This document shows positions 1 through 55,421 of a stretch of 64,000 nucleotides of DNA, piece by piece. A program made the translations under genes and the position numbers. Origin of the DNA: Tetradesmus obliquus. Taxonomy: Eukaryota; Chlorophyta; Chlorophyceae; Sphaeropleales; Scenedesmaceae. The stretch is from NCBI GenBank assembly GCA_030272155.1, contig CP126205.1:1910501-1974500 (forward strand), written 5' to 3'. Positions within the stretch are counted from its first letter, which is position 1. Each line of letters starts with the position of its first letter. The notes below the pieces were generated by a model, which worked only from the letters and a program-made list of their open reading frames with translations, was not told where the DNA came from and searched no databases.

Positions 1-2400
1 CCGCTTCCTCAACAGGCTGCTGGGGCTGCCGCTGGGCCGCCAGAACCTGCTCTTCAACTACTTTGCGGCAACACTGGCGGCTGAGATCGCTGCTGCACGC
101 GCTGAGGGCAGGTGTGCTTGCTCGGCAGTTATCTGGAGATCCCGGCCACTGTGATCAGCTTGTTCATCGGTTGAAGACACATGCGTTCAACCCTGAACTT
201 CACTTGGCGCTGCTGCCGCCCGCACACACATGTGTCCAACCCTGAACTTCACTTGGTGCTGCTGCCGCTGCTGCTGCTGTTTCGGTTGCGCAGGTACACC
301 GAGGGCGTGAGTGATATCCAAGGCAGCAGCATCAGCCTGGCAAGGCCCCCGCAGCTGCTGCGGCCGACCCTAATCCTTAGCTACTGCTGCTGCTGCTGCC
401 GCTGCCGCACACTGTGCAGGTACACTGAGGGCGTGAGTGACATCCAAGGCAGCAGCATCAGCTTGGCGCGGCCCCCGCAACTGCTGTGGGGCGCCGCCAG
501 CGGCGGCAGCGAGGCTGGCGCGGCGGCGCAGACATGGGTCAACACGCTGCAGGTGGATCGGGGCATGACCTTTGAGGTGAGCGGCAACAACACATCTGGG
601 CATTGTGATGTGATTCCGCATATTGTCATTCAGACTGTTGCATCAGCATACCTGGTTTGGCTGCACTACAGTGGAGCAATCTTGTTGGATGTTTAGTGTA
701 ATAGGTGGTAGCGGCAGCGAGGCGGGCGTGGCGGCGCAGACGTGGGTGAACACACTGCAGGTAGACCGGGGCATGACCTTTGAGGTGAGCGGCAACAACA
801 CATCTGGGCATTGTGATGTGATTCCGCATATTGCCATTCTGACTGTTGCTCCAGCACACATGGTCGGCTACGCTGAAGTGGAGCATTGTGTGCAGCTGTA
901 AACTTGGCGATTATATGTGGTAGCGGCAGCGAGGCGGGCGCAGCGGCGCAGACTTGGGTCAACACGCTGCAGGTAGATCGGGGCATTACCTTTGAGGTGA
1001 GCGGCGGCGGCGGCTAGTCCTTGACCGCAGCAACATTGATGTTGAATGCTGATACGGTGCGCTTTGCTGCCCAAGTCTCCTTCTGCCACTGCTGCTTTAG
1101 ATATATCCAGCCTAGTCTGTGGCGCATTGCAGAGCACGGCACTTTGACTGTTCATGTTGTGCCATTTCTTACTGCAGCATGCTGCTGCGCCGCCACCATC
1201 CTGCCCCGGCTGCCTGAGCGGCTTCACTTCTGTGCAACTCCTTGGCAAGCAGACCTCTATCAACTGTCTGTGCTGCATTGCTTTGTTCTTGCAGGATGCT
1301 GCGCGCCGCCTGGCGCACGAGTCATTCCCTGGCTGCCTGAGTGGGTTCCGTCGTAGCAGGCGGCCCATGTTTGGGTCTCACCTGGTGCTGCTGGCGCTGC
1401 AGAAGCCTGGCCAGAAGCACTTGTTCAGCCTTGTGAGACCAAACACAGGTAGGCGGGGCTGACGGTTGTGGAGGGTGATAGGTTGTCAAACAGTGATAAT
1501 GGCAGTACTTTTGTTGGCTGTGTTTTGTGTTTTAAGCTGTTGGTATTTGGCCCATATTCGCTTACCCTTCGGACGTGTGGTAAAAGTGTAAAAAGTCGGC
1601 TAAAAGTGCCAGCGGTGCAGGCTTAAAAGCCTTGGGTCGCAGGCTCGACCCCCGGCGCTTATTTGGCAGCAACTTGGTGCTGCTGGCGCTGCAAAAGCCA
1701 GGGCAGAAGCACCTCTTCAGCCTCGTGCGGCCAAACACAGGTGCGAGCGCCCAGGCTGTTGGCAGCACTTGAGTGTGATTGGATTGAGAGCAACAGCCTT
1801 GTTTTGTGTTATTGTGGGGTTCTGGTGCTGGTGTTTGGGTCCCTCTAGGTGCTGCTGGCGCTGCAGAAGCCTGGCCAGAAGCACCGCTTCAGCGTGGTGC
1901 GGCCCAACACAGGTGCGAGCGGCCAAGCTATTGGCAGTACTTGGGTGTGATTAGATTGAGAACAATAGCCTTGTTTTGTGGTATTGTGGGATTTTTGTGC
2001 GTGTTTGGGTCTCACCTGGTGCTGCTGGCGCTGCAGAGCCTGGCCAAAAGCACCTGTTCAGCCTTGTGAGACTAAACACAGGTGCGTAGTTGGGATGCCT
2101 GTGGTGTCCTTGTTACCAACCCATCTGGGGAAGCAGCCCACTTGCTGCCCTGCCCCAGCTGGACTTCTGATCCGACCTGCTGTTGCTGCTTGCTGCTGCA
2201 GCACGGCAGGCGAGGCCTTCTAGACATGACACGCATTGAGTGGGACGATTAGCACATGTGCGCCCATTGCTGAATGCAGTGCAGCTGATCCCCCTGCTCT
2301 TGCTGCTGCTGCTGCTGCTTCTGTGCTGCAGGCGAGGCCTTTTATGACATGGAGCGGGGCGACCTTGATGAGAAATACGTGCTATATCCTATGCCTGTCA

Positions 2401-2450
<50 letters not shown>

Positions 2451-5400
2451 ATTCACAAACAACACGGCAGGCGAGGCCTTTAATGACATGGAACGTGGCG
2501 AGCTGGACGAAAAATATGTGCGGCTGGCGCCAGAGGCAGCACAGGAGGATTGCGCTGACGGCCTACATCTGATCTTGCTGCTGCCATATATGTTGTTACA
2601 TTGCAGGCGAGGCGTTTTATGACATGGAACGCGGCGAGCTTGATGAGAAGTACGTGCTACATCTTATGCCATTCATGTTGCCGCTGCTGCTGCTGCTGCT
2701 GCTGCTGCCATTTCACAAACTTTGTGCCGGCAGGCGAGGCCTTCTACGACATGGAGCGGGGCGAGCTTGATGAGAAGTATGTGCGGCTGGCGCCGGAGGC
2801 TGCGCAGGAGGAGTGGGCGGCACAGCACGCCGCCAGCCTGGGCAGCTGCATCCACGGCGCTGCCTGCGCCAGCAAAGCCACGTGCCAGGTGAATGCTGTG
2901 AATGCTGTGATACGAACAAGCCAGTGGGGGTTGGTGGTCTGGGGATCATCTGAGGATGGTATGAGCCGTTGCGAGCTGTGTTTGAGATGGAAGTGTGTGG
3001 TTTGGCAGGCGATGACTGTGGAAACCAGCATGTGATTGGGTGCGTTGTCGCCAGCCTCAGCAGCTGCATCCATGGCGCCGCCTGCGCCAGCAGAGCCACT
3101 TGCCAGGCGAGTCCACATATCACAGTGCATGGTCTAGCAGGCTGCTGCGACGCGCGTAGCAGAGCCTGTCTGAAGGGATGGTATATATGCTAGCACAGCC
3201 ACTTGCCAGGCACGTGCATAGCATACATCACAGTGCTTAGACCATCTGGCAGGCTGCAGTGAGGTATGCACAACATGTATAGTGGGTGGCACAGCACGTC
3301 GCCAGCCTCAGCAGCTGCATCCATGGCGCCGCCTGCGCCAGCAGAGCCACCTGCCAGGTGAGCGCGGTGTGGTGCAGAGCATGTGTGGTGTGTACGGTAG
3401 TATGATGCGGCCAGCCTGGGCAGTTGCATCCATGGCGCTGCCTACGCCAGCAGAACACCTGCCAGGTGAATGGCTGTGCGCTGCAGAGCTCGTGTAGATT
3501 TGCTGGTTGCGGCCAGCCTCAGCAGCTGCATCCATGGCGTCGGCCTGCGCCAGCTGAGCCACCTGCCAGGTGAGTGCGTTGTGGTGCAGACCATGTGTGG
3601 TATGTACGGTAATATGATGCGGCCACCTGGGCAGCTGCATCCATGGCGCCATTGAGAGCCACGTGCCAGGTGAGCACTGTTGATGAAGCGAGTTTGTTGG
3701 TGGTCCAGAGTGGGAACTGTCGCCAGCCTCAGCAGCTGCATCCACGGAGGGGAGAATGCATGTGCGCTGCAAAGCGCCTGTAGTTTTGTTAGTTGCGGCC
3801 AGCCTCAGCAGCTGCATGCATGGCGCTGCCTGCGCCAGCAAAGCCACCTGCCAGGTGAGTGCAGTATGGTGCTTGGTCTGCAGGTCTGTACGGTATGTGT
3901 TTTGCAAGAGTTGCATGAATAGTAGTGTAACATGTTCAGCAGCGGCAGCTGCATTCAATACCCACCTTGTGCTGCGCTCTGACGTGCCTGGCCGTGCTGA
4001 TTCGCCTGCTGCTGCCATTCCTCAGGTCGGGCGGCGCCCGACTCAGATGACAATTCTGTCCGGCAGCGTGGTGCGCGTGTGGGGAGTGCTGGAGTCAGTG
4101 CTGGAGCAGTGCCTCTTCTGCCCTGTTCTCTGACATGTCTGCCTGCTGATATGGTTGCTGCTGCGTTTCCAGGTGGGCCGCCGCCTGACTGAGGTGACAA
4201 TCCTGTCCGGCAGCGTGGTGCGCGTGTGGGGGGTGCTGGAGTCAGTGCTGGAGCGGCGCTCACGCGAGCTGCATAACAAGGCAGACAGGACAATGCGCGT
4301 GGTGCGCGTCACGCTGCGCCAGCAGCAGCCGCAGCAAATCCTGCTGCAGCAGCAGCAGCAGGAACAGCAGCAGCAAGGGGAACAGCAGCCGCAGGGTCAG
4401 CAGCAGCAAGAACAGCAGCAGAAGGCTGGAGATGGTACAGGCCAGCAAGAAGAGCAGCAGCAGCAGCAACAGGAGCAGCCTGAAGCAGCCGTCAAGGCCG
4501 CCAATCATGCAAAAGCAGCTGCAGCAGGTGCTGGTGAAGAGCGCACCATAGTAGGTGTGCGTTACCCTGCCATGCTGCTGCCAGAGGTAGTGGCCACGCT
4601 AGCCTCCCTGCACAACAGCAGGAGCACAAGCCTGCAGGGCCTGCAGCAGCAGTCCCTGCAAGCGCTTTGGACCCAGCAGCAGCAGCAGCAGCAGCAAGCC
4701 AGTCAGCAGCAGCCGCTGCTGATGAGTGGCTGGTGGGCAGCAGGGGTAGACAAGCAGCAGCTGGCAGCAGCCGCTGCTGGCAAAGCAGCAGCAGGTAGCG
4801 GTGGCAGCAGCAAAGCGTCACTAACAGAGGCCTTGGGCATTGCCCGGATAGAGCCGCCAAGGCCAGTAGATAAGAAGCTGCAGGCGAAGGCCTTCAGGGC
4901 TCCCAAGACTCTGCACAGCTACTTTCAAAGCAACGGGGCAGCAGCAGCAACTGGAGGCAGCAGTACGCCAGAGCATGCTGCTTCTGATGGAGGGGCTGTT
5001 TTTGGTAGTGCAGCTACCAGTGCCAAGCAGGCTGCAGCAGCAGCAGCAGCGATGCCGGGGCGGTCAGCATCAGCGCCTGCAGCTGTTGCAGCACGTAACA
5101 GCAGCGGCAGCAAGGGCAATGCAGCAGCAGCTGGCGCTGCAGCAGCTGCAAAGAGAGGTGGCAGCGCTTCATGCCTTGACAGCTTCTTCAAGTGGCCAGC
5201 TGCAGGAGCAGCAGCAGCAGCGGCAGCAGCAGGCACTGGCAAGGGCCAGCAGCAGCATGGGGGGCAGCAGCTGCCGCCAGCCAAGAAGCAGCGTGTCCAA
5301 CCACCGCAGCAGCGGCAGCAGCAGCAGCAGCCAATCAAGTGCGACTCGTCCTCTGTTATACTGATTGACAGTGACACGGAGTGCGATGACAAATCAGTAG

Positions 5401-18768: not shown

Positions 18769-21021
18769 ATGGCCACCCGTAACAGGTGTATCAGACATAC
18801 ATCGTTAGTTGCAACTTTACTGCTGTGCGCTACAGCTGCTGCGGGGCTTTCTCAGATGCATATGGTAGTCGCAGCTGTGCAACCAAGACCTGGATACAGC
18901 GTATCAGCAGCTGGAAAGGAAAACAAGTGTCCGCAAGGCACATACAACACAGCGGCTGCTGGCCAAAAGAACTGCGTCAGCTGTCCTGCTGGCTTCACTA
19001 CACTAGCAGAGGGTACCGCGACAGCTGCCTGCTTTGTGCGACCCGGATGGTGAGCACGATCCCTTGAGGCATATCGCACCTGCAAGTACCTGACCTTGTG
19101 AGCAAAGCACGGCTGCAGTAGCTATCCTGTGCTTCTGCTGCTGTGCTGCTGCTGCCTGGCTGGATGCAGCTGTGCCTTACGGTTGCAAGCAGCTAGATGG
19201 GTGCTCAGCACAAGACCACCAAGCAGGCTGCATGCTATCCTCATTTGATATACGCCAGCACAGGCGTTGCATGCTTGCCCATCACATGCGCTCTGGGGTG
19301 ACCCCAGTAGTTGCCTCACCCCATCTGTGCATGCCTACATTGCTGCTGCAACATCCTGCTGTGTTGCTTGCATCCTGCGCTGCGCAGGCAATTAGATGCT
19401 AAGTCAAAGCAGCCCAGGCCATGTGACAAAGGCAGCTGGTCGCCTGGGGGCAGCCCAAAGGACCCCAGCGGCAGCTGCATCAAGTGTGCTGCTGGGTTTA
19501 CCACACAGACAGATGAATCGACCAAAGCAACTGACTGCGAAGGTGAGAGCAGCAGGACATACTTGTGCAGTGTGCCCACACAGTGATGACATGCGCATGC
19601 TGCAAACCGCTTTTGCATTCGCATATGAAGCCGGCATAGCAGTGAGGCGGCATGTTATTACAGGCCAGCACAAGCCAAGCTGTTGCAGCTGAGGGCGACC
19701 ACACCATATGTTACATCTCACTGCTCTGCAGTGTTTTTGCGGGGCCGTGGGGGGTGCGGCTGCGTGCTGTGCCAATCAAGCCACGCCTGTGCATACAGCC
19801 AGCTCAACTACGCGCACATGTAGTGATGCGCTTGATTCGGTGGTGCGGCAAGCTGTCCTGTCATGCACTTCACCACAAAGAAGGTTTTCTGAGCTGCTAA
19901 TGACGTCACCTTCTGTTGAACATTTTCGTTTTGCAGTGTGCCTGGCGGGCCGTGGGGGCCCCAGCTGTGCGCTGTGCCTTTGACGTAGACCTGCACAACA
20001 CATGTCTCTGCAGCTGCGTATGACGTCACCATCTGTCGCGTTATACTACTGCTCGCAGTGTGCTTGGAGGGCCGGGGAGGCCCCAGCTGTGCGCTGTGCC
20101 CCTCGGGCAGCTTCAGCGCAGACGGCGGCAAGCGCAGCCCCTGCAGTGCATGCCAGCCGGGACAGACCAGTCCGCGTGGCGCCACCAACCCCGCGCAGTG
20201 CTTTGCAGCAATGATGCCGGTGAGCTGACAGCAGCTGCTGCAGGGCTAGCAGGTGCTTGCGACATGCACAGATTCACAGCAATGCTCATGTTTCAACGCC
20301 TGCAGCAGACCCTGCGCATGGCTGGAGCGATGGTGCGACTGCTGTGGCTTGATTGCTGACATGTTCTTGATGCTGCTGCTTCTGTTGCTGTCCTGCAGGC
20401 TGATCAAGACTATTTTCCACTCAGCGAAGACAAGCTCTGGAAGGGCGTGGCAGCGCAGTCTGCGGAGGCCTGTGCAGCAGCTTGCGCAGCCAACACCGGT
20501 GAAGGCAGCGGGCCGCCTGCCTGCATAATGTACAGGTGGGCAGCGGTGTGCTGGGCTGCACGCGCTTGGCTGTTAACAAACATGCAGCTTTGACTTCAGG
20601 TGTCTGGTTTGCTTCAAAGTGCTGCTCACGCTGCTGCTGCGGCCGCCCCGGCGCTGTGCTTCCTGCAAGCAGGTGGTCGGACGCCGCCGGTTGCCAGCAG
20701 CTGCAGGAGCAGCAGCCGCTGCCCGACTCCTCCCTGCTGGGCTTCAAAGTCCTGCAAGGCACCGATTATGCAATCTATCGCGTTCCTGCAAGCACAACCG
20801 CCGGCGAGCAGGTCGGCAGCCAAGAGGCTAAAACCCTGCAGGAATGTGTTGCAGCGTGTGATGCGCTGAACACTTGTGAGGTTTTTAGCTTCCCAGGGTT
20901 CAAGGCAGCAGGGGCCTGCAGGATGTTCAGCAGTGTGCTGGAGTCGGAGTATCAGAGCATGGTGCATGTGTCTGGCGCGCACCTGTTTTACGGCAGGACC
21001 AGGGCACGGCTTGAGGGCTGA
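18769..21021 (+). CDS. Secreted Cys-rich (ephrin-receptor/GCC2-like) and PAN-domain protein
   Basis: Five exons join in phase: 18769-19049, 19388-19542, 20059-20219, 20399-20535 and 20673-21021 (TGA), giving about 360 residues. The N-terminus has a basic start and a hydrophobic run (LVATLLLCATAAAG) typical of a signal peptide. Three Cys-rich units follow: CPQGTYNTAAAGQKNCVSC with CPAGFTT; CDKGSWSPGG with CIKCAAGFTT; and CALCPSGSFSADGG with CSACQPGQTSPRGATNPAQC. These match the ephrin-receptor/GCC2-GCC3 type. Exons 4-5 give two PAN/Apple-like halves (AEACAAACAAN; LQECVAACDALNTCEVFSF). Such proteins are usually extracellular or cell-wall adhesion or carbohydrate-binding proteins, which is an inference here. 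An in-frame ATG at 18721 could lengthen the start. The intron before exon 3 holds two copies of that exon's start. Confidence 0.75.
19726..19985 (+). repeat. Two acceptor-side copies of PAN-gene exon 3
   Basis: Copies near 19726 and 19936 repeat cag|tgtg and the coding start of exon 3 (VCLAGRGGPSCALC at the second), which is complete only at 20059. The first is more decayed. Both lie upstream of the true acceptor, the same arrangement as in FGT1, GFS12 and PFK. Confidence 0.75.
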
Positions 21022-21861: not shown

Positions 21862-24800
21862 TTAACCACAAACCTCACCAGCAGCAGCCATGCGCCGGCA
21901 TGCATGCTTATGCCGGCGCCAGTCAGCCGCCTGGCAGGCAGCGCTGCAGTAGCGGCAGCGGCAGCCAACACAGCGCTTGTTGGCGGCTGCCACCTCGCTC
22001 ACCCCAGCCAGGTTCTCGCAGCAGGGGTTGTTGCACACCACAGGCACTGGTGCTGCTGCCGCCAGCGCCCTGCACAGCTCCAGGGCAGCTGCAAACTGCT
22101 GCTCCACATGAGCAATAGTGAAGATCGCCTCACCATCCTCCTCGAGCTGCTGACCCAGGTTTTGTGCAACTGCCTGATATGCAGCCTCTGCAGCTGCCCA
22201 GCGTGGTTTCAAGTGGAGCTGCAGCAGGTGGCCCCACTTGACTGGCTGGCCGCTGCTACTGCCGCTGCCGTCGCTGCTGGTGCTGCTGGACTGCGCAGTG
22301 CTGCTGCTGCTACCGCAGCTGTCGCCAGCAGTGCATGTGGCTGTACTGCTGCTGCTGCTGCTGCTGCTTGCCTCGTCACTGCTTGCGCAGCCAGCTGTAC
22401 TGCCTTCGCCAGTGGCTGCTGCTGCTGCTGCTGCTGGTTCCGAGCTTGGCTGTGTGACGATGCTCCACATGCAGAGCGCCGCGCTCAGCACGCAGCGCTG
22501 CCACACCTGGCACCACTGACCTTCGGCACTCCTGTAGCGCTGACCTGGCGCGGGCCCAAACCTTGCCATGATGACGCCGCTTGATGCTGGCGACCACCTC
22601 ACACAGAAGTCAGCTCCAGCCACAAGCGACTCAAACAGCAGCTGCGGCCCTGCTGCCTCCATGGCGGTGGGCGCTGCGTGCAAGCACCACAGCCAGCAGC
22701 GCAGCGCTGGCACGCACCTGGCTGCTGCTGGTCTTCTCAGTGATACCTGCTGCAAGTGCGGGGCGCACCAGCAGCGTTTCAAACATTCTCGGGGCCGCCG
22801 CAAGGAAGTATGTGGCCGCGTCATGCCCTGCTGCAGCTGGCTGGTGCTGCTGCTGTATGAGTGCTGCTGTCCTGGTGAACTGCACTGCCCGCTTCATAAA
22901 GCTAGTAAGGGCAGAGGCCAGGCCAGCAACTGCTGCTGTGTCTGCCAGTAATGTTGCAGAGCTCAGCACTGCATTGACTGCAGGGGCCAGCAGCTCAGCA
23001 GCTACCAGCATGTCTTGCGGCTTCAGCTGGTCAGAGCGCATGCAGCAGTCGATGAGGGCTGCGTAAGCCTCTGGGTGTGCTGCTGCCAGGGCGCGGAGGT
23101 GACTCTGCTGCACCACTGCAGCAACAAACCAACAATGGTGTTTGCAGCACACACAGCAGCAGGGATGGCGCTCGGTAACTGCCGCCGTCTTGTCAAACAA
23201 AAGGGCATAGTCACGTGGCTTGTCGCTCTCAATGCATTGTTGCTGTCCAACATGCTGGGATAGGAAACACCCTGCAGAGTGCGCGCTGGCGCAATAAGCA
23301 GCATCAGGTTTGATGATCGCATGTGCAGTGCAGCGCTGCAATGCCAACGCCTAGCCTGCCACCTGTGCGCGTCTGCCCAGAGCAGCAGTGGCATACAGAG
23401 CTACACAGTTAAAACCAAGAAAACATCCACTGGCTAAGGTGGCAACGCCTGCGCAAAACAGCTCACCAATCGTGCCGTCCTCAGCCGCTATCACTATTTC
23501 TGCAGCGCCCCTCAGCGCATACAGCTGGGAGATCATCAAAGAGGGTGCTTGCCAGCTTGGCAGCTGCTGCAGCTGCACTGGTGCTGCCAGCGCTTGCAGC
23601 AGCTGCAGCCCTGCCTCCTTCAGCACCTCAGGCAGGCAGCCCCCGTCTGTGCAGCACATGGAATGGCGAATCTGTGCTGCCAGCAGCACGTCACAGCGTA
23701 GCAGCAGTGTGTGCGTCTCTGTGGTTGCCGCCGACTGCTGCTGCTGCTGCACTGCATCAGCAGCCAGCAGCTGCAGCTCTAGCACCAGCCGCACAGCAGC
23801 TGCTGAGAGCAGCACGGCATTGCACGCCTGCTGCTGCTGCTGCTGTAGCCTGCGGCGCCCCTGTGCCTGCAAGCTGGCAAAGAGGGCGGTGACAGCCATG
23901 TTGGCTTGTGCCCAGCTTGTGTCAATGTCACCCTCTTCGTGCAAGCTGGCGTCCTCTGGCAGCACATCTGCTGCTGCATCCAGGTATGCCTGCCCGCCTG
24001 GCAGCTGCATGTCCTGGTGGAAGGCAGGGATGGGCAGCAGCTGCAGCAGAGCCCCCGTCCTTGACCTTTGCTGCTGCTGCTGCTGCTGTTGCTGGTGCAG
24101 CAGCGTGGCAAAAGCAACCACAGGCTGTAACAGCACCTGCTGCAAAGCATCAGCCAGCAGCAACTGCTCCAACTGCTGTGCTGCATCTGCTGGCAGCTGC
24201 TGCTCTGTAAGAAAAGCTTGCACCCTCAGGACCAATGCCGCGGCAGCGCACTGCGTACTGATGTATGATTTGTGCCGTTTGCCGCTGCTTCTGCTGCTGG
24301 CTGTTGCTGCAGCTGGCGGCAGCGCCGCACACCGATGCAATTGCTGCAGCAGCCGCATCGTGCCCCGCACTGCAGCGTGCTGCAGGGCGGGCGGCACTAG
24401 CATGCATGCGTAGCGAAAGCCTATCTCTGTTGCGGCCATGAGGGTACGCATGGTGTCAAACACTGAGTCACAGGGGGTCCAGCCCCCTGATGTGCTGCTC
24501 CACTGCTGCCTGATGGCCTGCATCAGCGGCACTACGCTGGCATGCATGCTGCTGAGCAGCCCTGCATAGTGGGAGCAGCGGCAGCAGCAGCATCAGCAGC
24601 AGCAACATCAGCAATGTAAGAAGCGATGCCAGCCATGCCGACAGCTATGCAAGCAATAAGTGCAAAGGCTTGCTGGTGTGCTTGCTGTGCACCAGGCCAA
24701 GTGAGAGCAGGAGCAGTTCCCCGCAGGTGCAAGAAAGCAACATGACACAAACGTTTGCAGGAACATGAAAGGGGCAGAACCCATGCAGCATGTTATCTAT

Positions 24801-25353
24801 TGTGCAGCAGCTGAAGAGGCACACCAGCTGCAGAAAACAGCAGGCAGCATCTGTGCATCATCAGCCAAGCTGACAAATGCAGGGCGCCTGTACCATGTCA
24901 ACTAGCTCTGAGCTCATCATATCTAAGCATTGACAGCACTGCACCCACACATCTGCTGCCGTTGGGAGCTGCTCGTGTGCTCCAGCTGTGTCGTGCCGCT
25001 GCTGCAGCAGCCCAAGCTGCAGCTGCTTTGGCCGCTGCTGCAGCCAAGCCAGCAGGGTGCCTGCGCTGCGCGCTGCATGGTGCCGCAGCAGCAGGCACAA
25101 CACGCGGCCTGGCGCAGCTGCTGCTGCGTCGCTGAGTCCCTCTTGTAACTCAATGTCTTCCAGCAGCAGAGCACTGCCCCGTATCAGATGCATCTGATCA
25201 CCCGTCAAAACAGCAGCGTCAGGCGGCAGCTGCTGCAGCACCTGAGACACGCCCTGGCTCTGCACCATGGCATTCAACAGGCTTGCTTTGGCCTCTAAAT
25301 CATGCAGCAGCTGCTGCTGCTCCGTTTGCTGGGGTCCGTTTGCTGGGGCCCAG
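21862..25353 (-). pseudogene. MYND-finger protein paralogue, decaying
   Basis: This is a second copy of the neighbouring gene at 25414-29246. The first exon is recognisable from about 25353 (LLHDLEAKASLLNAMVQ, then QVLQQLPPDAAVL) but loses similarity before the expected donor. Exon b (24561-23467) is open, keeps both splice borders and codes LLQLLPIPAFHQDMQLPGG. Exon c starts at 23115 (VVQQSHLRALAAAHPEAYAAL). Near 22665 it has about ten bases where the paralogue has 21, which shifts the frame before MEAAGPQLLF. Downstream the frame is open to a C-terminal MYND zinc finger (CNNPCCENLAG, CVGCRCRYCSAAC, ADWRRHKHAC). It begins only about 60 bases after the stop of its paralogue, leaving almost no room for a promoter. 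Confidence 0.65.
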
Positions 25354-26288: not shown

Positions 26289-26340
<52 letters not shown>

Positions 26341-33648: not shown

Positions 33649-36308
33649 GCTGTGCCATGGTGACGCCGCACTGCCGCAGTGACCTGCAGTCACTGCTTCG
33701 CTACAGCCCCAGTAGCTTAGGTGGCGACTGGCACTTGCGCTTCCTGCTGCATCAGCTGCTGCATGCTTTGGCAGCACTGCATGGCCAGGGGCTAGCACTT
33801 GGGGGGTTGTCTGCGCAGCAGCTGCTGCTGCTGCGCCCGGGGTGGCTTGCGCTGCTGGCAAAGCCAGCTGGGACGCTGCTGATGGACAGCAGCAGTGACA
33901 CTGCAGCAGCAGCAGCAGGAGTTACCCTAGGAGGGAGCTTCACCGGCACAAGCAGCAGCACACAGCTGCAGCCTTGGAGTCAGCAGCGGCAACAGCAGCA
34001 GCAGCAGCAGCGGCTAGTTGTTGTGAAGGAGCCCTGGTACAGCCTGCGGCAGCTGACAGAGCTGTGGCGGCTGCGCAGCATCAGCAACCTGGAGTACCTG
34101 CTGTGGCTGAACGCTGCTGCGGGGCGGGTGTGGGGTGACAGGCGGCGGCACCCGCTGGTGCCCTGGGTGATTGACTTCAGCGTGCGGCCGTCAGTGAAAG
34201 GTGAGTTGTGCTTCTGCGCTATTTCGTCACGATTGTAAACCGTACATCATCTTTGGAAACACGTCATGCTTTGGAAACACGTCATGCTTTGGAAACACAT
34301 CATGCTTTGGAAACACGTCGTGCTTTGGAAACACGTCATGCTTTGAAAACACGTCATGCTTTGGAAACACGTCATGCTTTGGAAACACGTCATGCTTTGG
34401 AAACACGTCATGCTTTGGAAACACGTCATGCTTTGGAAACACGTCATGCTGTTTATAATCTGCCTGAATCACACTAAGCACTGTGCGGCAAGGTCTGCAA
34501 GGTGGGTGGGGTGTGTTGAACGCTGCTGCGGGGCGGGTGTGGGGCGACAGGCGGCGGCACCAGCTGCTGCCCTGGGTGATCGACTTCAGCGTGCGGTCAG
34601 TACTGACAGGTGAGCTGTGTGATATGCACTGCTTCGTCGCAATATGCACGACACTATACATCAACTGTGGAACGAAGTTTTGCCAATATAACGCTGCCTT
34701 AACTATGTTGAGAAGTGTGCGTCAAGATTTGCAAGGTGGGTTGGGTGTGTTGCATGCTGCTGCGGGGCGGGTGTGGGCGACAGGCGGCGCCACCCGCTGC
34801 TGCCCTGGGTGATTGACTTCTGTGTGCGGCCTGCGCTTACAGGTGGGTTGCGTGGTTTGCATCTGTTTGTTACAGTGATACACCAAGTATCCTTGATGTC
34901 AACACGTGATATTGATGCAACGCTGCCCCTTATAAATTTGGTAGTGTGCGACAAAGTTGGCAAGGTGAGTTGGTTGTGCTGAATGCTGCTGCGGGGCGGG
35001 TGTGGGGTGACAGACGCCGCCACCCTCTGGTGCCCTGGGTCATTGACTTCAGTGTGCGGCCAGTCTTGCAAGGTAAGATGACAGCAATGACATGTTTGAG
35101 ATGCTGGTAGTGGTAGTGGTAATATTGCAAGCTGGTTACCCGCTGGTGCCTTGGGGATGACTTCAGCGTGCGGCCAGCACTGACAGGTTTGAGCTTGTGA
35201 CAGTTTGTTTATGACAATAATGCCAACGACGCTATGCTGTTTTTTTGTTGCATGCTGGTGCAGTGGAATGCATGGACTCCATGGTCGGACCAACTGCATA
35301 GGCAACTGGTGCTCATGGCGGTGTCTGAGTTGTCGTATGTCTCGTATGCTGCAGGACATACAGCTGCAGGCAGCAGCAGCAGCAGCAGCGCCCCGCCAGG
35401 CTGGCGCGACCTCAGCATCAGTCAGTATCGCCGCATCAAGGGCGATGCGCAGCTCAGCCAAACCTACGCCATGTCAGCTGCAGCAGCCGCTGCAGCAGCC
35501 GGCCTCGCTCCCGGCGAGCGTTATAACAACTGTTATAATATCTACACCAGCCGCCACCCCTGGGCCTGGCCCGGCGGCTGGGGGGATGCGGCATCACCCC
35601 TTGCAGCAGCAGCAGCAGTAGACGGCAGCTCTGGCGATGCAGCAGCAGCAGCGGCAGCGATTGTGCCGCCGCACCACATTAGTAATGAGCCTATGAGTGA
35701 GCTGTCATTTGCCATTTACATGGCCCGGCGGCTGCCTGTTGAGCTGCTGGTTAGTCTGGTGCGGAGGTCTTTCCGGCCTGCGGAGTACCCTGCAAGCATT
35801 GAGGTGCTGTTCCTCAGCAGCCCTGATGAGGCACTGCCCCAATTCTACATGGACCCCAAGGTGAGCCTAAATAGCATGTTATAACACATATAATAACACA
35901 TGTTACAACATCCTCAAAACACCGTCATAAGCATGGACAGGGCATGGTAAGCGTGAAGTTGTCTCACAGCTGTTCGTAGGAGCACGGTTGAGAAGGGCAT
36001 AACGTGCGCTGGAGGGGTTTGGGTGTGGCAGTGTGCAGAGTACCCTGCAAGCATTGAGGTGCTGTTCCTCAGCAGCCCTGACGAAGCACTGCCCCAGTTC
36101 TACATGGACCCCAAGGTGATCGGTGAAACATGTTATGATGTGTTGTAACAGTTCAAGCATCACTGGCACGACATGCAGCTGCGCAGGCATGTTGTTAAGG
36201 CAGTGGCTAGTATGTTGTAGAGGAAGCTGGGTGGCGTGCAGCCGAGGGGTTGGGGTGGCAGGTTGCTGCTGCCCGCAGTTTGCAACGATCTGACTCCAAA
36301 CACTAAGC

Positions 36309-46819: not shown

Positions 46820-47115
46820 ACTGCTGCTGGCGTGATGGCGCTGTTCTGTTAGTCAACAGCAGCTCGCCAGCCACGAGAGAACCAGGGTCAATGCAGTGTA
46901 AGCATAACCCTTCAAACTGGCTGCTTCTTGCGTGCCGGCGCTGTGCTGTTCCTGAACAGCGGCTGGCCGATCGCTGCCTGCAGCCTCGTCAATATGCCGC
47001 CACACACATACACTGTATGGGTCCATGTGGATCCTTTGCCCTTCACACTGACTGCTTTCTGCGTGCCAGCACAGCGCTGCTCCTGGAAAGCGGCTGGCCA
47101 ATGGCTGCCCAGCAG
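46820..47115 (-). repeat. Three copies of the PFK terminal coding segment beyond the stop
   Basis: Copies at about 47113-47060, 46995-46925 and 46872-46820 repeat the last PFK codons (LRAAIGQPLFRNSTAPARKK at the true end, QAAIGQPLFRNSTAPARKK in the middle copy). All lie downstream of the TGA at 47162. The third is only weakly similar. Confidence 0.75.
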
Positions 47116-47161
47116 CCCATCCACCTCCCTGTCAGGGGCTTAACTGTTTACGCTTTGCTCT

Positions 47162-47737
47162 TCAAGCTGGCTGCTTCTTGCGTGCCGGGGCTGTGCTGTT
47201 CCTGAACAGCGGCTGGCCGATTGCTGCCCGCAGCCGCGTCCAGCTGCGGCCGTTGACGTCCACCTTGCGTGCGCTCTGCGTGATGACACTGGACGGCAGC
47301 AGCACGCTGTGGCTGTTGACCTGGCCCACCATGACACCTGCAGCAGCAGCAGCAGCAGCAGATGGGTTGGGATAAAATGAAACAGATGTTACTTGCGGGC
47401 AGCAGCACGCTGTGGCTGTTCACCTGGCACACCATGACGCCTCTGCAGCAGCAGCAGCGGCAGCAGGGGCAGCAGCAGCAGCAGCAACATGTAAGGTTAT
47501 CAGCAGCAGTCACAGCAGTAGCAGCAGAAGCAGCAGAAGCAGCAGAGGCAGGCTGACTGACAAACAAGCTTTCTGCATTCATGTTGGTGCTCACAGGCTA
47601 CTGCAGTGTTGCTTCCAAACGTTATGCTATTTGCACAGGGGTTCAGGGCTTACCTGTGTATCCTGCAAAGGCTGCGTCCACCGCGTGCATGCCCAGCACC
47701 CTGCAGTAGATGTGGTCGGGGCTGGTGCACGGTACCG

Positions 47738-47777
<40 letters not shown>

Positions 47778-49793
47778 CACCGCAGTACACTAAGTCATAT
47801 AGCAGTATAATGGCTAGTGCATTGGGCAACACACAAGGAGAGATATGCTGATTGGCGTGCACAGAAACAGCATTTCCCTGAACCTGAACCCATACCACCC
47901 CTACTCAATCCGTGGCGACGCCTGCGCCAATTTGAAAACCATGTACGTTGGGTCGATGTAATTTAAGGTTGCTGCAGGGATGTCCGCCTTTGATGCCTTT
48001 CTTGAGGAAGATGCCAATGTCACCCCAACCCCGAGCACAACCCCTAAGCCCCAACCCAGTCCGCCAGCACACCTGCACCATGTAGGTGGGGCTGCTGTAC
48101 TAGAGTGTGTACCATCTTGTGTCAAAACATCACAAATTTGAAGCTGACCACACCCATAAACCTGAAGCAGACATACCTGCACCATGTATGTGGGGTCAAT
48201 GTACTTGAGAGTCGAGTCAGCAATGGCAGCCTTGATGGCCTTCTTGAGGAAGATGCAAATGTCACCCCAAACAGAACTTCGAAACTCAACCCGTAAGCCC
48301 CGACACAGCCAGTCAGCACAGCTGCACCATGTAGGTGGGACTGCTGTACTAGATTGTGTACCGTCTTCGGGTCAAGACTTCACACATTTGAAGCTGAAGA
48401 AACCCATAAACGTAAAGCAGACATACCTGCACCATGTATGTGGGGTCAATGTACTTCAGGGTTGAATCAGGGATGGCTGCCTTGATGGCCTTCTTCAGGA
48501 AAATGCCGATGTCACCCAGTAGTGGGTTGCCAGCCTCATCCAAAGGAATGGGCTCACCAGCTGCATTGCGGCAATGAAAAGTAACATGTTAATTTGTTGA
48601 TATGACAAATTCTGCAATGCTTGGCTGGTATACATGGCCTTCTTGAGGAATATGCCAATGTCACCCAGCAGCGGGTTGCCCGCGTCATCCAGCGGGATGG
48701 GCTCACCAGCTGCAGCGCAGCAATGTAACAAGTGATTTGTAATGACACACCATGTCATAGTGATTTGTAATGACACACCATGTCATAGTGTTGTTGTGAG
48801 ATGCCAATGCCTCCCAGCAGCGGGTTACCGGCCTCATCCAGGGGGGTGGGCTCAACAGCAGCAGCGCAGCAGTTTGCATAAGAAACAGCTGGTAGTCTGC
48901 GAACGACTCAGTACAAAATGACGTGTCACTGATGCTGCTGCTGCTGCAGCTGCGGCCGCTGCTGCTGCCTGTACCATCAACAACCTTACCTGGGTGCATC
49001 AGGTCCTGCCCAGCTCCCTCCGCCACACAGATCACAGCATGGCTGTTGCGCTCCAGCAGGTCTTTGAGGTAGGCCAAAACCCCACAGGGACCCTCCAGCT
49101 CAAACTTCTCCTCTGCAGTACAACAGGCAGGACAGTTTCAGCGCAAAAGGCATTACAAATTAAGTCCCTGTCTGCCTTCTGCAGTGCAGGTGTAGCATGG
49201 CATATCTGTTTGCAGCAGGAGCGCTTCAGGTTGACGTACAACAACAGGCAGAACCTGGGCAGTACCGATCATTGTGCTGCAGTACATGGTCAGTGCTCCA
49301 GGTCTACAACTAAACTTGTATGTTCAAGCAACACGGGATACCTGGGATGAGGCAGATGTCCACGCCCTCCGACGCCAGGGAGGCCTGCAGCGCGATGAAG
49401 CCCGAGCGCCGCCCAAACACCTGCCAGGACGGCAGACACAAAACCACACAGCAGCGACGGCAGGCAGCACAGTATTTTTGGCATCTGAGCAGCATCAGTG
49501 TCTGTAGCAGGGAGTAGGATTGACACAGAGCCGCCCGAAAGCAGGCAAGACAACATACACAGCAGATTAGCTTGCTCAGCATGATTGCCGGCAGGGTGGC
49601 TGCAGGTGTGGCAAAACGCTGTAATGATACAGCCAAAAAGCATGAGAATTTGCCGGCAGACCAGACTCGATCGCAGAATGCATGGCCCGCTGCTGCTGCT
49701 GCTGCTGTCAGCGCCGCACCTTGACCAGGCCCACACCCTTCCTTGCACTAGCTGCCTCGATCTTGGCAGCAAGCAGCGGCCGCTGCACCTCCT

Positions 49794-49826
<33 letters not shown>

Positions 49827-50684
49827 CATCAATGTTGGTAGCTGCACCCAAACCAGCTTTTGCTGCCTTGATGAAACTGTGGCAACAGCTCAAACACTGC
49901 CAGAGCTGTCACGAGAAGCGCTTGCTAACAAGTGTCACTGTGGGCCGTTCCTTTTTCCGCATACTGCTTGTGCTTCTTGAGGCATCTGTGTCGACAAGTT
50001 GGATATCACATGCAGATTGATCTGCTCAAAGCTAGGGGTTGTGTCCTGGAGCATCACACCATTATTCTCAACATGACACAGCGCAACATAGCATAGCATG
50101 TCACATAACATGCACCCCACCTGTACCACTGTGTCGAAGCCAAAGGTCTTGTCCATGAGCATCACGTCATTGTCAATGCTCTTCTTTAGACCCACAATGC
50201 AGCAGAGGATGCTGCTGCTGATGGCCACATAACATGCAACCAGAACTATGCAAGCCCTCAGCCGCTCCACCAAATGTAAGCCAACTCATATTCAACATGC
50301 GGATCCTACCTGCACCACCGTGTCAAAGCCAAAGGCCTTATCCATGAGCATCACGTCATTGTCAACGCTCTTCTTTAGACCCACAATGCAGCAGAGGATG
50401 CTGCTGCTGATGGCCACATAACATGCAACCAGAATTATGCAAGCCCTCAGCCGCTCCACCAAATGTAAGCCAACTCATATTCAACATGCGGATCCTACCT
50501 GCACCACCGTGTCAAAGCCAAAGGTCTTATCCATGAGCATCACATCATTGTCGATGCTCTTCGGCACGCCCACAATGCAGCAGGGGATGCGCCGCCGCTG
50601 GCAGCCCTCAGCCAGCTGTGCCCCCAGCTGGTTGCCGCCCTGGCCGCCAATCACAAACAGCATGTTGATGCGCCTGCGTGCAGA

Positions 50685-50723: not shown

Positions 50724-50810
50724 CATGAAGTAAGCAGGAGTCAGCTTTGCAACTGCACTGCTATGCCACGCCAGCCGACGATCACAAACGGCATGTTGAT
50801 GCGCCTGCAG

Positions 50811-50849: not shown

Positions 50850-53800
50850 GCGGCGGCAGCAGCAGCAGCAACAAAAAGGAGGTAGCAGTGACGTCAGCCA
50901 AAAGGTTGAAACTGCATGCAGAATTGTTATGCAACATTTATTGCAATCCAAAGGTATGCTGCTTGCAGTGAGAAGAGAATACCAATGTAACATGGTGACA
51001 ACAGACATGTGACGCGTTACTTACCAGAAGTCCAGCTTGTCCAAGATCTGCTCCAGCTCATCCGCTGCTGCCTCAGCACCCAGCATGCTTGCAAGCGTAT
51101 CTGCCCAACCCCCAACACACCTCAACAAAAAAACATGAAAAGCAACATGTTACTTACCAAAACTCCAGCTTGTCCAGAATTTGCTCCAGCTCATCTGCTG
51201 CTGCCTCAGCGCCCAGCATGCTCGCCAGCGCATCCGCCTGGCTCCTGGCATGCAAACAACACAATTCAAAATGTAACAAGAAAAGTAACATGTTACTTAC
51301 CAGAAGTCCAGCTTGTCCAAGATCTACATCTGCTCCAGCTCATCCGCTGCTGCCTCAGCACCCAGCATGCTTGCAAGCGTATCTGCCCAACCCCCAACAC
51401 ACCTCAACAAAATAACATGAAAAGCAATATGTTACTTACCAAAACTCCAGCTTGTCCAGAATTTGCTCCAGCTCATCTGCTGCTGCCTCAGCGCCCAGCA
51501 TGCTCGCCAGCGCATCCGCCTGGCTCCTGGCATGCAAATAACACAATAAAAAGGCAACAAGAAAAGTAACATGTTACTCACCAGAACTCCAGCTTGTCCA
51601 AGATCTGCTCCAGCTCATCTGCTGCTGCCTCAGCACCCAGCATGCTGGCCAGCGCATCCGCTTGGCTCCTGCTGCTGCTGATGCGGCCACCATTGCCATT
51701 ACTGCCGCCGCCGCCGCCGCCGCTGCTTCTGCTGCTGCTGCTGCTGCTGTCTGTATCAGATCCAGGCGAGCCTGATCCTGAGGCCAGTACACTTGCATCG
51801 CCGCTGTTGCTGTTATCCCACTCTTCCTCCTCATCGCTGCTGCTAGGGCCGTGCAAGCGCTGCAGGCGGTGGCGCTGCCGGCTGCGGGTTGGCGCGCGGT
51901 GCACGTTGCTGGTGCCGAGGATGGTGCCGCCGGTGTGGTGGATGCCCTCGATCTTGTCGGGTGTTAAAACGATGGGCTTGTAGTCATGCGCAGTAAAGCC
52001 GCGCACGCCGTATCTGCAACGGCAGGGATCAACAGGTCAGTAGCAGCTGTTGCGTCGGGTTTTTAAGTACGGTAGAAGCAAAGGCTGTTGGTTTAGTACA
52101 GAGGGTGGAGGCTGGTGCCCAGGATTGTGCCGCCGATGTGGTGGATGCCTTCGATTTTGTCTGGGGTGAGCACGATGGGCTTGTAGTCATGCGCAGTAAA
52201 GCCGCGCACGCCGTATCTGCAACGGCAGGGATCAACAGGTCAGTAGCAGCTGTTGCGTCGGGGTAGAAGCAAAGGCTGTTGGTTTAGTACAGAGGGTGGA
52301 GGGTGGAGGCTGGTGCCCAGCATTGTGCCGCCTGTGTGGTGGATGCCTTTGATCTTGTCTGGGGTGAGCACGATGGGCTTGTAGTCATGCGCAGTAAAGC
52401 CGCGCACGCCGTATCTGCAACGGCAGGTATCAACAGGTCAGTAGCAGCTGTTGCGTCGGGGTAGAAGCAAAGGCTGTTGGTTTAGTACAGAGGGTGGAGG
52501 GTGGAGGCTGGTGCCCAGCATTGTGCCGCCTGTGTGGTGGATGCCTTTGATCTTGTCTGGTGTTAAGACGATGGGCTTGTAGTCGTGTGCTGTGAAGCCG
52601 TGCACGCCATAGCTGCAATCAGGTGTAGGGTTCAAAGGTTTAAATCGGTCAAGGCTCAGAGTGGAGTTACAAGCAGTGGGGCATGGTTCGACATTTGGTG
52701 CGAAGGGTGATTGGGAAGCGGCAGCAGTAGCAGAGTACACGTTCAAGTTGCTACCACCGCACGAAGACAGTGCAGCGAGGCCAGTGGAAAGCGTGCTGTG
52801 CAGCTGTACTTTGTACAAGATTGTGAAGGGCAGCTGCCTTGCTCATTCAACATCTCGGAGAGTATGTTGACTGTTAAAGGCAGCCAATATGCATCATGTC
52901 TGCAGGCCATCACCATATGCCCAGCACCCTCTCCTCGTGCACACCATAGTTCGCCAGGCGCGTGTGCTGCCTGACAAATTGCAGTCAAACACGGTCAAAC
53001 ACAGTCAAATGCAGCAGAAACGCAAGCATAGTATCTTGCGCCTCACCGTATGCCAAGCACGCTCTCCTCGTGGCCTCCATAGTCAGCCAGGCGCGTGTGC
53101 TGCCTGACAAATGCAGTCAAACACAGTCAAACACATAGTAACGCACCAGAATGCAGGCATAGTATCTGTCGGCTCACCGAATGCCCAGCACGCTTTCCTC
53201 GTGCACGCCGTAGTCCGCCAGCCGCTTGCACAGGGCCTGGATGATGTCATTCATGCCCGGGCAGATGCCGCCTGCATTTGAAGATGGCAAGGCGTGATTA
53301 TCAGCTGCATCCCTGCCTGGCAATAGGCACCCTGCTGCTGCTGCTGCTGCTGCACATGCATGCACTGCCGCTCTTCCCGGCAATCAGCAAGCGCCGCATC
53401 ATGCAACTCTGCCGGACCAACTGCTATGCCTAACGCAGCCTTCAACCGGTAAAGCCATACCCATACCTGTGCTGATGATGGCTGCAGTCACTGTCTTGGG
53501 GTCATAGTATGTCTCTTCCTGTGGCCCCGCCCTTTCACTACAGCTATACCAACTGCCATGGGTCAAAGCCAACCCTCCAATTATTTTCCTCACCTGTCGA
53601 TATGATTGCTGCTGTGACTGTCTTGGGGTCAAAGTAGATCTCTTCCCGAGGCCCGGCACGCAGGGCATACGGCGGCAGCGGCATCACCTTTGTGCCATCC
53701 CCCTGCTGCACCGCATCCATGCTTGCCACACTGGCAAAGGTGTTTGCAGGGCCAGCAAACACGCCGCTGTTGAGCGTCCTGTTGCGCAGCGTGCTGCTGC

Positions 53801-55421
53801 TGCTGCTGCTGCTGCTGGATTCGCTGCCGCTGTGGTCGCCAGGGATGCTGTAGGAGCCGAACTCAACGAGGTTGAGCGCTGCACGGTCGTCATCTGACAC
53901 GTACCTGTGCCGCGCGGGAGTGAAGGCGTGGCAGCAGCAGTGTGCAGCGGCACGACAACAACAGTGCGTCAGTTGTTGGAATGCTGGGAACGTTGTGGAG
54001 AGCCGAGTTCCACAGGGCGAGCGCTGCTTGGTCGTCATATGGCAAGCATCTGGGCGCAGTTGTAGGTGTGTTGTAGGTAGCTGGGTGGGAGGGCATGGCC
54101 GCGCAAATGCAGCGCAGCGGCAGCAGGGCCAGTTGACGAGAGGAGCATTACGCGCGCAGCGGCGCCAACTAGTCAACTTTGCACAGGGTGTGCTGCGGCA
54201 GCTAAGTATGTGCTCCTGCTGCTGCTGCTGCCATGTCAGCTGCCACTATGAAGCATCTCAGCGCATTTTTGCAAGCAGCTACCAGCATTGCGGCATTGCT
54301 GCAGAGAGCTTGCAGAACGCCTGGCATGCTCTGCACTGCTACTACAACCAACAACCGCACAAGCTACACAACAGCCCTGCAGCTGGCCAGCAGTGCGGCT
54401 TCACCTGCCCTCCCACACTTTGCCGATGTTGTCCTCAATTGTGGTGTGGCGAGGCGGCCCCAGGATGTGGCGCATGGTGGGGCACTCCAGCACCTCATCT
54501 GTGGGGGTGGCCAGCGTGACTGGCGGGACTGCGCAGCAGCAGCAGCAGCAGCAGCAGCAGGCAATCAGGAACATGAACAAGCAGCAGCATGCTGCACACG
54601 GCAGGGCAGATCAGCAGCTAATCTGCTTGTGAGGCTCCGTGTCGATGACCACAAAGCAGACCACCATGCATTCACCAAGACAGCCCTGGCAACAGCAGCC
54701 AGTGCACTCAGTTAATGCTCAGTTGATTAGACAAGACGCAAACAAGCTTGGATTTTGAGAACTTGCGCGATGTAGTCTGCAAGTCGTCCGTCACAGGTCT
54801 GCACTTGAACAGCTGCAGGTGAACTAGGGTTGTGACTAGGGTTTCAGCAGCTGTTCTGTGGTGCTGAATGAGTGAGGGCTGCACACTCGTGTCACCAGGC
54901 ACACTGCTGAGTGCACATGAAGACACAGAAAGGCAACGCGAGGTGGTTGTTGTGAAGGTCTGGCCTGCAGCTGTTTGATGGCCCACATGCACAGCATCGC
55001 AGAAAGGCGTGCGAGTGTGCATTTGCTTGCACCAACGTTGCTTTCCAGCTTGGGCCATGTTGCTTGCATAGCAGCTCACAGACAGCACATATTGCTTACT
55101 TGCAAACAGCAGTCGCCCATCCATGCTCATCATGCCAGCCCCGCCCGCTGCCTGGGCAGCTGCAGCTGCAGCTGCTGGCGCTGCTGCTGCATGCTCCCTT
55201 GCACTAGGTTTTGCTGCCTGCGATCCACCCGCTGCAGCTGCTGTCGGACTGCCTTTTGCTTCCGGCTGCTGCTTGCTGCTGCCCTCAGATCCGCTGGGTT
55301 TCGCTGCTGGGCAGCTGATGCTCCTTCTGCTGCTGTGCGGGTGGTGCAAGGCCCCTGTCAAGGCAGTTGGGGCACGCGCGCGAACGTGCAGCCTTGGAAG
55401 GCCTTTAAAATGCAGCTTCAT
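47162..55421 (-). CDS. PFK: Plant-type ATP-dependent 6-phosphofructokinase
   Basis: Twelve exons join in phase: 55421-55100, 54528-54414, 53904-53594, 53271-53178, 52013-51582, 50673-50499, 49791-49720, 49420-49342, 49112-48990, 48560-48427, 47738-47654 and 47337-47162 (TGA), giving 705 residues. It phosphorylates fructose 6-phosphate in glycolysis. Family marks in order: AGPREEIYFDPKTVTAAI, GGICPGMND, YGVRGF with HHTGGTILGTS, VPKSIDNDVMLMDKTFGFDT (catalytic Asp), FGRRSGFIALQASLAS, AVICVAEGAGQDL, GNPLLGDIG with LKYIDPTYMVQ, and AVDAAFAGYTG. The N-terminus is basic and Ser/Ala-rich (SSRRSISCPAAK), suggesting plastid import. Two oddities: the usual GGDGT loop is GGQGGN (Gln at 50640-50642), and exon 5 adds about 80 Ser/Gly/Asp-rich residues inside the catalytic domain. 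A close relative is Arabidopsis PFK1/PFK5. Most introns carry partial exon copies. Confidence 0.9.
47393..47447 (-). repeat. Acceptor-side copy of PFK exon 12 start
   Basis: After ctgcag it codes GVMVCQVNSHSVLLP, against GVMVGQVNSHSVLLP at the true exon start (47337). It then runs into intron. Confidence 0.88.
47930..48258 (-). repeat. Two donor-side copies of PFK exon 10 end
   Basis: Copies at about 48258-48178 and 48015-47940 code variants of LKKAIKAAI..TLKYIDPTYM. Only the first keeps the gtatgt donor. A stretch of intron (around 48070-48130 and 48320-48390) is repeated along with them. Confidence 0.85.
48630..48860 (-). repeat. Two acceptor-side copies of PFK exon 10 start
   Basis: Copies at about 48712-48630 and 48860-48795 code GEPIPLDDAGNPLLGDIGIF or a shorter variant. 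The true exon starts at 48560. Confidence 0.85.
50115..50410 (-). repeat. Two donor-side copies of PFK exon 6 end
   Basis: Copies at about 50405-50309 and 50215-50122 code SIDNDVMLMDKTFGFDTVVQ or a close variant, each with a donor. The rest of exon 6 is missing. The two copies are nearly identical over most of their length, including flanking intron. Confidence 0.9.
50765..50806 (-). repeat. Acceptor-side copy of PFK exon 6 start
   Basis: After gctgcag it codes RINMPFVIVG, against RINMLFVIGG at the true exon start (50673). It is preceded by a long CTG run on the coding strand (50815-50868). Confidence 0.82.
51020..51540 (-). repeat. Four donor-side copies of PFK exon 5 end
   Basis: Copies at about 51535-51440, 51390-51300, 51247-51160 and 51110-51025 code ADALASMLGAEAAADELEQI followed by LDKLEFW or a shortened form. 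Each is followed by a gtaag-type donor. They alternate in two types, so a two-unit block was probably duplicated again. Confidence 0.9.
52098..52618 (-). repeat. Three acceptor-side copies of PFK exon 5 start
   Basis: Copies at about 52616-52498, 52416-52300 and 52216-52098 begin ttgcag or similar and code YGVRGFTAHDYKPIVLTPDK then IHHTGGT. They are very similar to the true start at 52013 and break off at the same place. Confidence 0.92.
52906..53105 (-). repeat. Two donor-side copies of PFK exon 4 end
   Basis: Copies at about 53105-53046 and 52975-52910 code the LADYGVHEESVLGI end of exon 4 with changes, followed by gtgagg- or gtgatg-like donors. The true donor is at 53178. Confidence 0.85.
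53465..53530 (-). repeat. Donor-side copy of PFK exon 3 end
   Basis: Codes EETYYDPKTVTAAIISTG and ends acag|gtatgg. The true exon 3 end (53594) reads EEIYFDPKTVTAAIISTG. Confidence 0.88.
53990..54056 (-). repeat. Acceptor-side copy of PFK exon 3 start
   Basis: A diverged copy of the first 55 bases of exon 3 (YVSDDDRAALNLVEFGS at 53904). It contains gacgacc, gcagcgctc and gaactcggctc in the same order, but the frame is lost. Confidence 0.65.

Follow-up and report, generated by a model that had tools for sequence, protein, structure and literature searches.

The stretch of DNA considered here, referred to below as the window, comprises 64,000 nucleotides of Tetradesmus obliquus (bases 1910501-1974500 of contig 15, in a genome of 104.66 Mb and 17 contigs) and carries genes whose introns are filled with partial copies of the neighboring exons. 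The guanine-plus-cytosine (GC) content of the window is approximately 57%, and the available portion of a genome report gives, for the species, 107.7 Mb, 57% GC and a mean intron of 462 base pairs (bp) (PMC5966456). An earlier note on this DNA had proposed a strict arrangement for these half-exon copies: the 3' part of an exon with its donor is copied downstream of the true donor, an acceptor with the 5' part of its exon is copied upstream of the true acceptor, and where both kinds share an intron the donor-side copies come first. This rule of side and order is real where copies occur, and the observation is unusually clean.

Half-exon copies in the window

Gene models were built in the window for FGT1, which has an SBNO domain, for PFK and, as two exon ends only, for the BEACH gene GFS12. 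On the plus strand, FGT1 exons 1 (420-576, preceded by an acceptor at 419), 2 (1295-1448), 3 (2734-2888) and 4 (4173 onward, the frame being open to a provisional end at 6038) form a single continuous frame when joined, and the SBNO domain is recovered across the joined piece when the outermost sites are used (expectation value, E, 3.6e-14). PFK lies on the minus strand, where ten exons running from 53904 to 47162 join into an open frame, and exons 1-9, again joined at the outermost sites, return the PFK domain (E 1.2e-51). Frame and domain together support exons 1 (53594-53904), 2 (53178-53271), 3 (51582-52013), 4 (50499-50673) and 8 (48427-48560), while the frame supports exons 5 (49720-49791), 6 (49342-49420), 7 (48990-49112) and 10 (47162-47337, including the stop codon); the donor of exon 9 (47654-47738) was shifted by one base to preserve the frame. 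The earlier note held that the outermost original sites still give the right messenger RNA (mRNA), and the intact SBNO and PFK domains agree with this, so that splicing at these sites is inferred from protein rather than from RNA.

Forty-three copies in the window reach a splice site: 17 in FGT1, 5 in GFS12 and 21 in PFK. The FGT1 copies, all on the plus strand, begin with an acceptor-side copy of exon 1 (287-363), followed within the first intron by two donor-side copies of exon 1 (711-1005, specifically 711-844 and 923-1005) and an acceptor-side copy of exon 2 (1165-1225). The next intron holds three donor-side copies of exon 2 (1672-2083: 1672-1742, 1832-1914 and 2002-2083) and then three acceptor-side copies of exon 3 (2328-2657: 2328-2382, 2465-2555 and 2603-2657), and the third holds six donor-side copies of exon 3 (3049-3865) ahead of one acceptor-side copy of exon 4 (3977-4107). 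In GFS12, on the same strand, four donor-side copies at 34517-35199 derive from an exon ending at approximately 34200, and a fifth at 36034-36119 derives from an exon ending at approximately 35862.

The PFK copies, all on the minus strand, include one acceptor-side (54000-54055) and one donor-side (53475-53530) copy of exon 1, two donor-side copies of exon 2 (52910-53097), three acceptor-side (52111-52618) and four donor-side (50999-51529) copies of exon 3, and one acceptor-side (50774-50808) and two donor-side (50107-50414) copies of exon 4. Exon 8 has two copies of each kind (acceptor-side at 48634-48871, donor-side at 47938-48267) and exon 10 one acceptor-side copy (47385-47442), while a search for copies of exons 5, 6, 7 and 9 found none. 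Two further copies, of the 3' end of exon 10 including the stop codon region, lie beyond the true stop (46910-47126), and the outermost rule therefore seems to hold past the PFK stop codon as well. The earlier figure of about 50 copies in four genes corresponds here to the 43 in FGT1, GFS12 and PFK, copies in a PAN gene standing outside this count; PAN matches at 20503-21018 in the window fall below the curated cut-off.

Both kinds of copy occur in three FGT1 introns and two PFK introns, and donor-side copies precede in all five. The three FGT1 introns singled out previously (577-1294, 1449-2733 and 2889-4172) are borne out, since their flanking exons form one frame with an SBNO domain. Comparison of the window with itself by BLAST (word size 11, dust filter on, E<=1e-6) yielded 92 local repeat pairs, less than 4 kilobases (kb) apart, of which 92 were direct and 0 inverted; with a shorter word and 16 overlapping pieces of the window, 2 inverted pairs emerged.

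Other repeats lie beside these copies. Within an FGT1 intron, 1553-1658 is a dispersed repeat of approximately 105 bp with matches of up to 95% on many contigs; a 3 kb query around it has 67 genome matches as a whole, several kinds of repeat being pooled in that number. One stretch of the repeat resembles what we take to be a B box of transfer RNA (tRNA) genes, and the element looks like a candidate tRNA-derived short interspersed nuclear element inserted in the intron. In a GFS12 intron, a tandem array of short units (TTTGGAAACACGTCATGC-like) at 34244-34450 adjoins the half-exon copies. Elsewhere in the window, at 21866-29221, two adjacent gene-sized blocks with long minus-strand frames share five stretches that are 73-84% alike; one of the blocks encodes a MYND finger, and on sequence grounds the pair is a putative tandem gene duplicate.

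Side, order and distribution across the genome

For loci beyond the window, the genome was searched with six Pfam families, and 20 of 34 kinesin clusters were taken in contig order, blind to repeats; the set was then enlarged by nine loci in which profile matches overlapped and, at a later stage, by eight further kinesin genes. A spliced profile aligner supplied the gene models, giving clean motor domains for nearly all of the kinesins (L050 scored low), with 6 of the 34 clusters left out of modeling. Windows around the model splice sites, some outer model ends being left out, were then scanned for copies whose alignment extends to within 8 bp of the site, including at least 20 exon bases, at least 30 bp long and with E up to 1e-3.

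Under these limits 110 copies were found in 13 genes, three from the window and 10 others, and each lies on the predicted side: 60 consist of an exon 3' part with its donor, downstream, and 50 of an acceptor with the exon 5' part, upstream. Among the 32 introns that bear copies, 14 contain both kinds, and in 14 of 14, including the three of FGT1 and the two of PFK, donor-side copies come first. Free shuffling of the copies would give this order with a chance of 4e-10, yet a tandem origin by itself holds each copy close to the site from which it derives. Three kinesin genes not picked for repeats (L019, L022 and L036) follow the rule.

Consistent with the edge scan are searches with exon-only queries, which hold no knowledge of splice sites. 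Across 16 genes these gave 125 direct exon-like matches outside exons, of which 113 end no more than 9 bp from the correct splice site and lie on the correct side (60 donor-ended, in the next intron or 3' flank, and 53 acceptor-started, in the previous intron or 5' flank), and none of the 125 is donor-ended and upstream or acceptor-started and downstream. Eleven of the remaining 12 reach neither site, five of them stopping 11-13 bp before the modeled donor. The twelfth, apparently a copy of the whole of exon 3 at L063, was rejected, the profile end there not being a real donor. For chance level, exon queries were run against 784 mismatched gene pairs and gave 292 matches irrespective of strand and place, or 0.37 per pair.

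Inverted matches were scarce throughout. With exon-only queries 2 were seen as opposed to 125 direct; matches to the edge windows numbered 81 when no length limit was applied and 1 under the limits that left 110 direct copies; and repeat pairs over 22 gene models were 96 direct and 9 inverted. Reversed order and full-length exon copies, named at the outset as findings that would count against the rule, were looked for and neither was found (14 introns; 125 matches), so that the earlier assertion that there is no exception still stands with respect to wrong-side copies. A true full exon with both splice sites appears in 0 of the 125 matches, and mutually exclusive tandem exons were not encountered among them.

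The further suggestion that genes in this lineage grow, as a general rule, through such copying was not borne out, since most genes lack the copies and a minority holds them in concentrated form. By profile matching, which is less sensitive, 13 of the 109 gene clusters with multiple matches were flagged (the tabulation omitting 7 of 402 profile rows: a repeat array on C13, Adaptin), and for two of the 13, a tRNA-synthetase on C15 and an SNF2 gene on C12, the evidence is at profile level only. Sequence-level analysis of 28 kinesin genes found copies in four (L046, L019, L022 and L036), with L046 bearing them in four introns; L050, L055, L056 and L058 had one exon-like match each, which is background level. 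No local direct repeat of at least 40 bp was present in 14 of the 20 fully fetched kinesin loci, and in the remaining six the repeat share of bases was 40% for L046 and 1-13% for the others. On C1-C7, 19 kinesin genes contribute 100 introns, and none of the 110 copies falls in these; in the PF00501 and PF00664 families no pair, as judged by eye, passed the overlap rule. A kinesin cluster on C5 was no longer counted as flagged, its match being due to merged frames, L055 having no repeat pair that touches an exon.

Eight contigs carry flagged genes (C2, C7, C8, C10, C12, C13, C14 and C15). The smaller contigs seem richer in copy-bearing genes: on C7-C17, 12 of 49 gene clusters have copies, as compared to 1 of 60 on C1-C6 (Fisher 4.7e-4, post hoc), and for kinesins at sequence level the counts are 3 of 9 and 1 of 19, respectively (P 0.08). 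PFK and class I aminoacyl-tRNA synthetases are normally essential enzymes. Since PFK and two class I aminoacyl-tRNA synthetases are among the copy-bearing genes, this argues against pseudogenes. The median length of introns with copies is 728 bp (32 introns), as compared to 238.5 bp for those without (112 introns).

Origin and preservation of the copies

The arrangement described above is probably best accounted for by tandem direct duplication across exon borders combined with selection for an unchanged mRNA, acting in the minority of genes affected. Short pieces of DNA that span the end of an exon would be duplicated repeatedly, in direct orientation, into the adjoining intron, such that duplication over a donor would place a copy downstream and duplication over an acceptor a copy upstream. 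Such an event would be silent provided that splicing connects the outermost donor with the outermost acceptor, in which case the inner copies leave with the intron. Duplications inside an exon, those of a whole exon or intron, or those placing an acceptor copy before a donor copy, would alter the mRNA or create a new exon and be removed by selection, and introns would lengthen as a consequence.

Several observations support this account. Firstly, the strict order is mostly what tandem origin and selection on the mRNA predict, and together with the absence of full exons it can be read as the footprint of both. Secondly, the spacing to the nearest copy is 93-409 bp (median 146), and given this spacing, the exon lengths and free breakpoints, 7.6 of 58 events would be expected to duplicate a whole exon where 0 are seen (P 5e-4), a shortage that agrees with removal of such duplications by selection; only 1.1 whole-intron duplications would be expected, so that their absence says little. 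Thirdly, 27 of the 110 copies contain a frame-breaking gap, as is possible in dead sequence. Lastly, for 23 of the 58 copy families the homology of the intron flank extends across the tandem unit predicted (z>=4). The previously proposed mechanism, in which border-spanning segments are duplicated in tandem, is thus supported by matching flank in these 23 families and lacks that support in the other 35, for which a tandem event would have to be presumed, as would selection as the cause of the pattern and lengthening as its consequence.

Two further loci, given in gene-strand positions, show related arrangements. At L060:2941-4273, a tRNA-synthetase intron contains intron-only arrays, approximately 73-97% alike and without exon parts, indicating that duplication is not confined to exon borders. 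At L064:990-1025, the last bases of a donor-side copy are CTGCAG, and the following P450 exon appears to start there, as if the copied exon end had turned into the acceptor of the intron.

A number of findings weigh against duplication and selection alone, and the first group of these concerns the flanks. The flank of the nearest copy is unrecognizable in 35 of 58 families (z<4), and in 36 of 58 the similarity ends within 9 bp of the splice site. Some unrecognized flanks do retain a faint likeness, as among copies with short extension the 95th percentile of mismatched flanks is exceeded by 7 out of 34 flanks on the donor side and by 11 out of 30 on the acceptor side. Median identity is nevertheless 89% in the 35 families without recognizable flank and 87% in those with it, and divergence of the exon part at codon positions 1, 2 and 3 is.063,.039 and.209 where flank matches (27 pairs) and.068,.043 and.187 where the extension is up to 9 bp (64 pairs), so that a lost flank does not simply reflect age. 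Fourteen copies combine at least 94% identity with an extension of up to 9 bp; eight of them have unlike flank, five have flanks of CTG/CAG runs and one has like flank. In the donor-side copy of L067 exon 2, 144 exon bases contain seven differences, all seven silent, next to an unlike flank.

The second group concerns preservation of the exon part. Over 110 exon-copy pairs, differences number 183, 132 and 556 at codon positions 1, 2 and 3, and over 15 pairs of copies that are both intronic they amount to 14/472, 9/473 and 59/473, with 69/954 in the flank; gaps between exon and copy occur 4 times in 2139 exon-part bases and 24 times in 1254 flank bases. When the intron flank is taken as a neutral yardstick, its alignments being biased toward the better conserved part and pairs within one array not being independent, insertions and deletions (indels) are fewer than expected both between exon and copy (4 seen, 20.5 expected, P 1.2e-5) and between copies (6 seen, at least 11.9 expected, P.048), as are changes at positions 1 and 2 (73 seen and 98.4 expected, P.005; 23 seen and at least 34.2 expected, P.03). 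The earlier account, in which the copies are tolerated, is qualified by these deficits of indels and of position 1-2 changes, which indicate that the copies may not be simply dead. The heavy concentration in a few genes also needs a further cause.

Some copies do decay, given that silent changes have a share of 0.43 in the 27 copies with a broken frame, as compared to 0.63 in the 83 whose frame is intact, and that this share drops from.75 to.49 as divergence rises. Polarized private changes, 19 of 40 of which are silent in copies other than the oldest where 26% would be expected, are suggestive only. Profile-chosen genes are biased for tests of silent change, profiles finding those copies that keep protein likeness; in the three window genes, which were not so chosen, 223 changes are silent and 150 are not. 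Variability at third positions exceeds that of the flank at cytosine-guanine dinucleotides (CpG) and at other sites alike. The mutability of CpG is itself strong, such sites differing approximately three times as often as other sites in the exon-copy alignments of 13 genes (.31 and.10 within introns,.46 and.14 at third positions). Taken together, excess preservation of the exon part is likely real, though not settled, and a coding-like exon part beside a flank that is often lost is a residue that duplication and selection leave.

One explanation for this residue, which we consider unlikely, is that the copies diverged as working exons in other haplotypes or parental genomes and that unequal exchange left these versions in the intron, dead but young. 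It would explain why copy differences are coding-like, with a position 2 to position 3 ratio of approximately 0.2 and few indels, why the intron flank is often unlike, as between diverged homologues, why the exon part diverges similarly with and without matching flank, and why all differences in the L067 copy are silent. The introns would then be, as a tentative and rather improbable reading, an archive of exon variants rather than a store of ordinary tandem duplicates, the variants being drawn from other haplotypes or kept by an unknown use and the archive arising where diverged homologues undergo exchange at the borders of exons. Such an origin requires, however, third-position divergence of approximately 20% between homologues, that is, a very diverse or hybrid species, and it requires more than two versions because copies within one array also differ in a coding-like manner.

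Coding-like divergence would likewise follow if half-exon copies were still used through alternative splicing and hence kept by selection, and the donor GT is retained in 46 of 52 copies and the acceptor AG in 46 of 50. This retention is, by our estimate, about what divergence alone gives, and splice-site conservation was set low as a sign of use. Spacing is even modulo 3 (classes 0, 1 and 2: 10, 10 and 10 for donors; 12, 9 and 7 for acceptors), so that use of an inner site would usually shift the frame. Splice pairs usable at the inner break occur in 2 of 60 donor and 2 of 50 acceptor copies, as opposed to 1.7 and 3.4 in shifted controls, while AG alone occurs there 35 times versus 41.1 and GT alone 22 times versus 16.4 (standard deviation 3.5). 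With 27 of 110 copies frame-broken as well, translation of the copies is unlikely, and retention through alternative splicing appears improbable as an explanation.

Gene conversion between exon and copies, which would keep the exon part alike while the flank drifts, is distinctly improbable. The exon part is indeed alike where flank is often lost, and copies of one array often share states against the exon, but third positions differ at.209 and the matching flank of the same pairs at.138, the opposite of homogenization, and the differences are not generally clumped (mean p.53), the 6 of 69 copies below.05 including 4 from one L046 array. Lastly, an artefact of assembly or annotation is extremely improbable, as the aligned stretches are a median of 88% identical where mis-assembly would repeat near-identical sequence, and the flagged genes are spread over eight contigs.

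Relation to known systems

The copies offer a base-resolution view of how the logic of splicing could act on duplications, with those that leave the outermost sites intact persisting (0 exceptions in 110 copies). They also make it possible to assay, in a natural setting, the choice that the spliceosome makes when several good donors or acceptors are on offer, and the presence of coding-like half-exons outside the frame raises a testable question of exchange between diverged homologues. Half-exon copies could pass for exons, which serves as a warning to gene predictors. Part of the long introns of this lineage, for which the available portion of the genome report gives the mean of 462 bp in T. 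obliquus, may stem from half-exon copying (PMC5966456). No earlier description of the pattern was found in the literature searched, outside which most subscription journals lie.

Comparison with systems already described, each as presented in the available part of its report, reveals both likenesses and differences. Introners resemble the present case in that copied sequence fills introns, but an introner is one element in many genes, whereas here the copies match their own neighboring exon (PMC9860276); sharing between genes of the introner kind was sought with exon parts only, and the exon queries matched other genes at 0.37 per pair, which was taken as background. In dmrt1 of Solea, exon sequence is likewise repeated within one gene, but as whole exons present in complementary DNA, while each copy described here carries one splice site (PMC7605655). 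The RdRp gene of potato contains a duplicated intron 3' end and exon 5' end, equivalent to the acceptor-side type; that is a single case leading to a new intron and inserted exonic sequence, whereas dozens of copies are found here, all outside the modeled frame (PMC4974935). AGGT-type intron gain is likewise a local, direct, intragenic duplication rendered harmless through splicing (Yenerall and Zhou, 2012; PMC3443670). There, however, the duplicated AGGT segment is internal to an exon and yields a new intron, while here the segment sits on an existing border, the old intron is longer, no new intron is seen and there are many copies per gene; at the inner break, usable splice pairs of the AGGT type are no more common than in shifted controls (2 of 60 for donor copies, 2 of 50 for acceptor copies). 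The half-exon pattern appears to be a variant of internal gene duplication.

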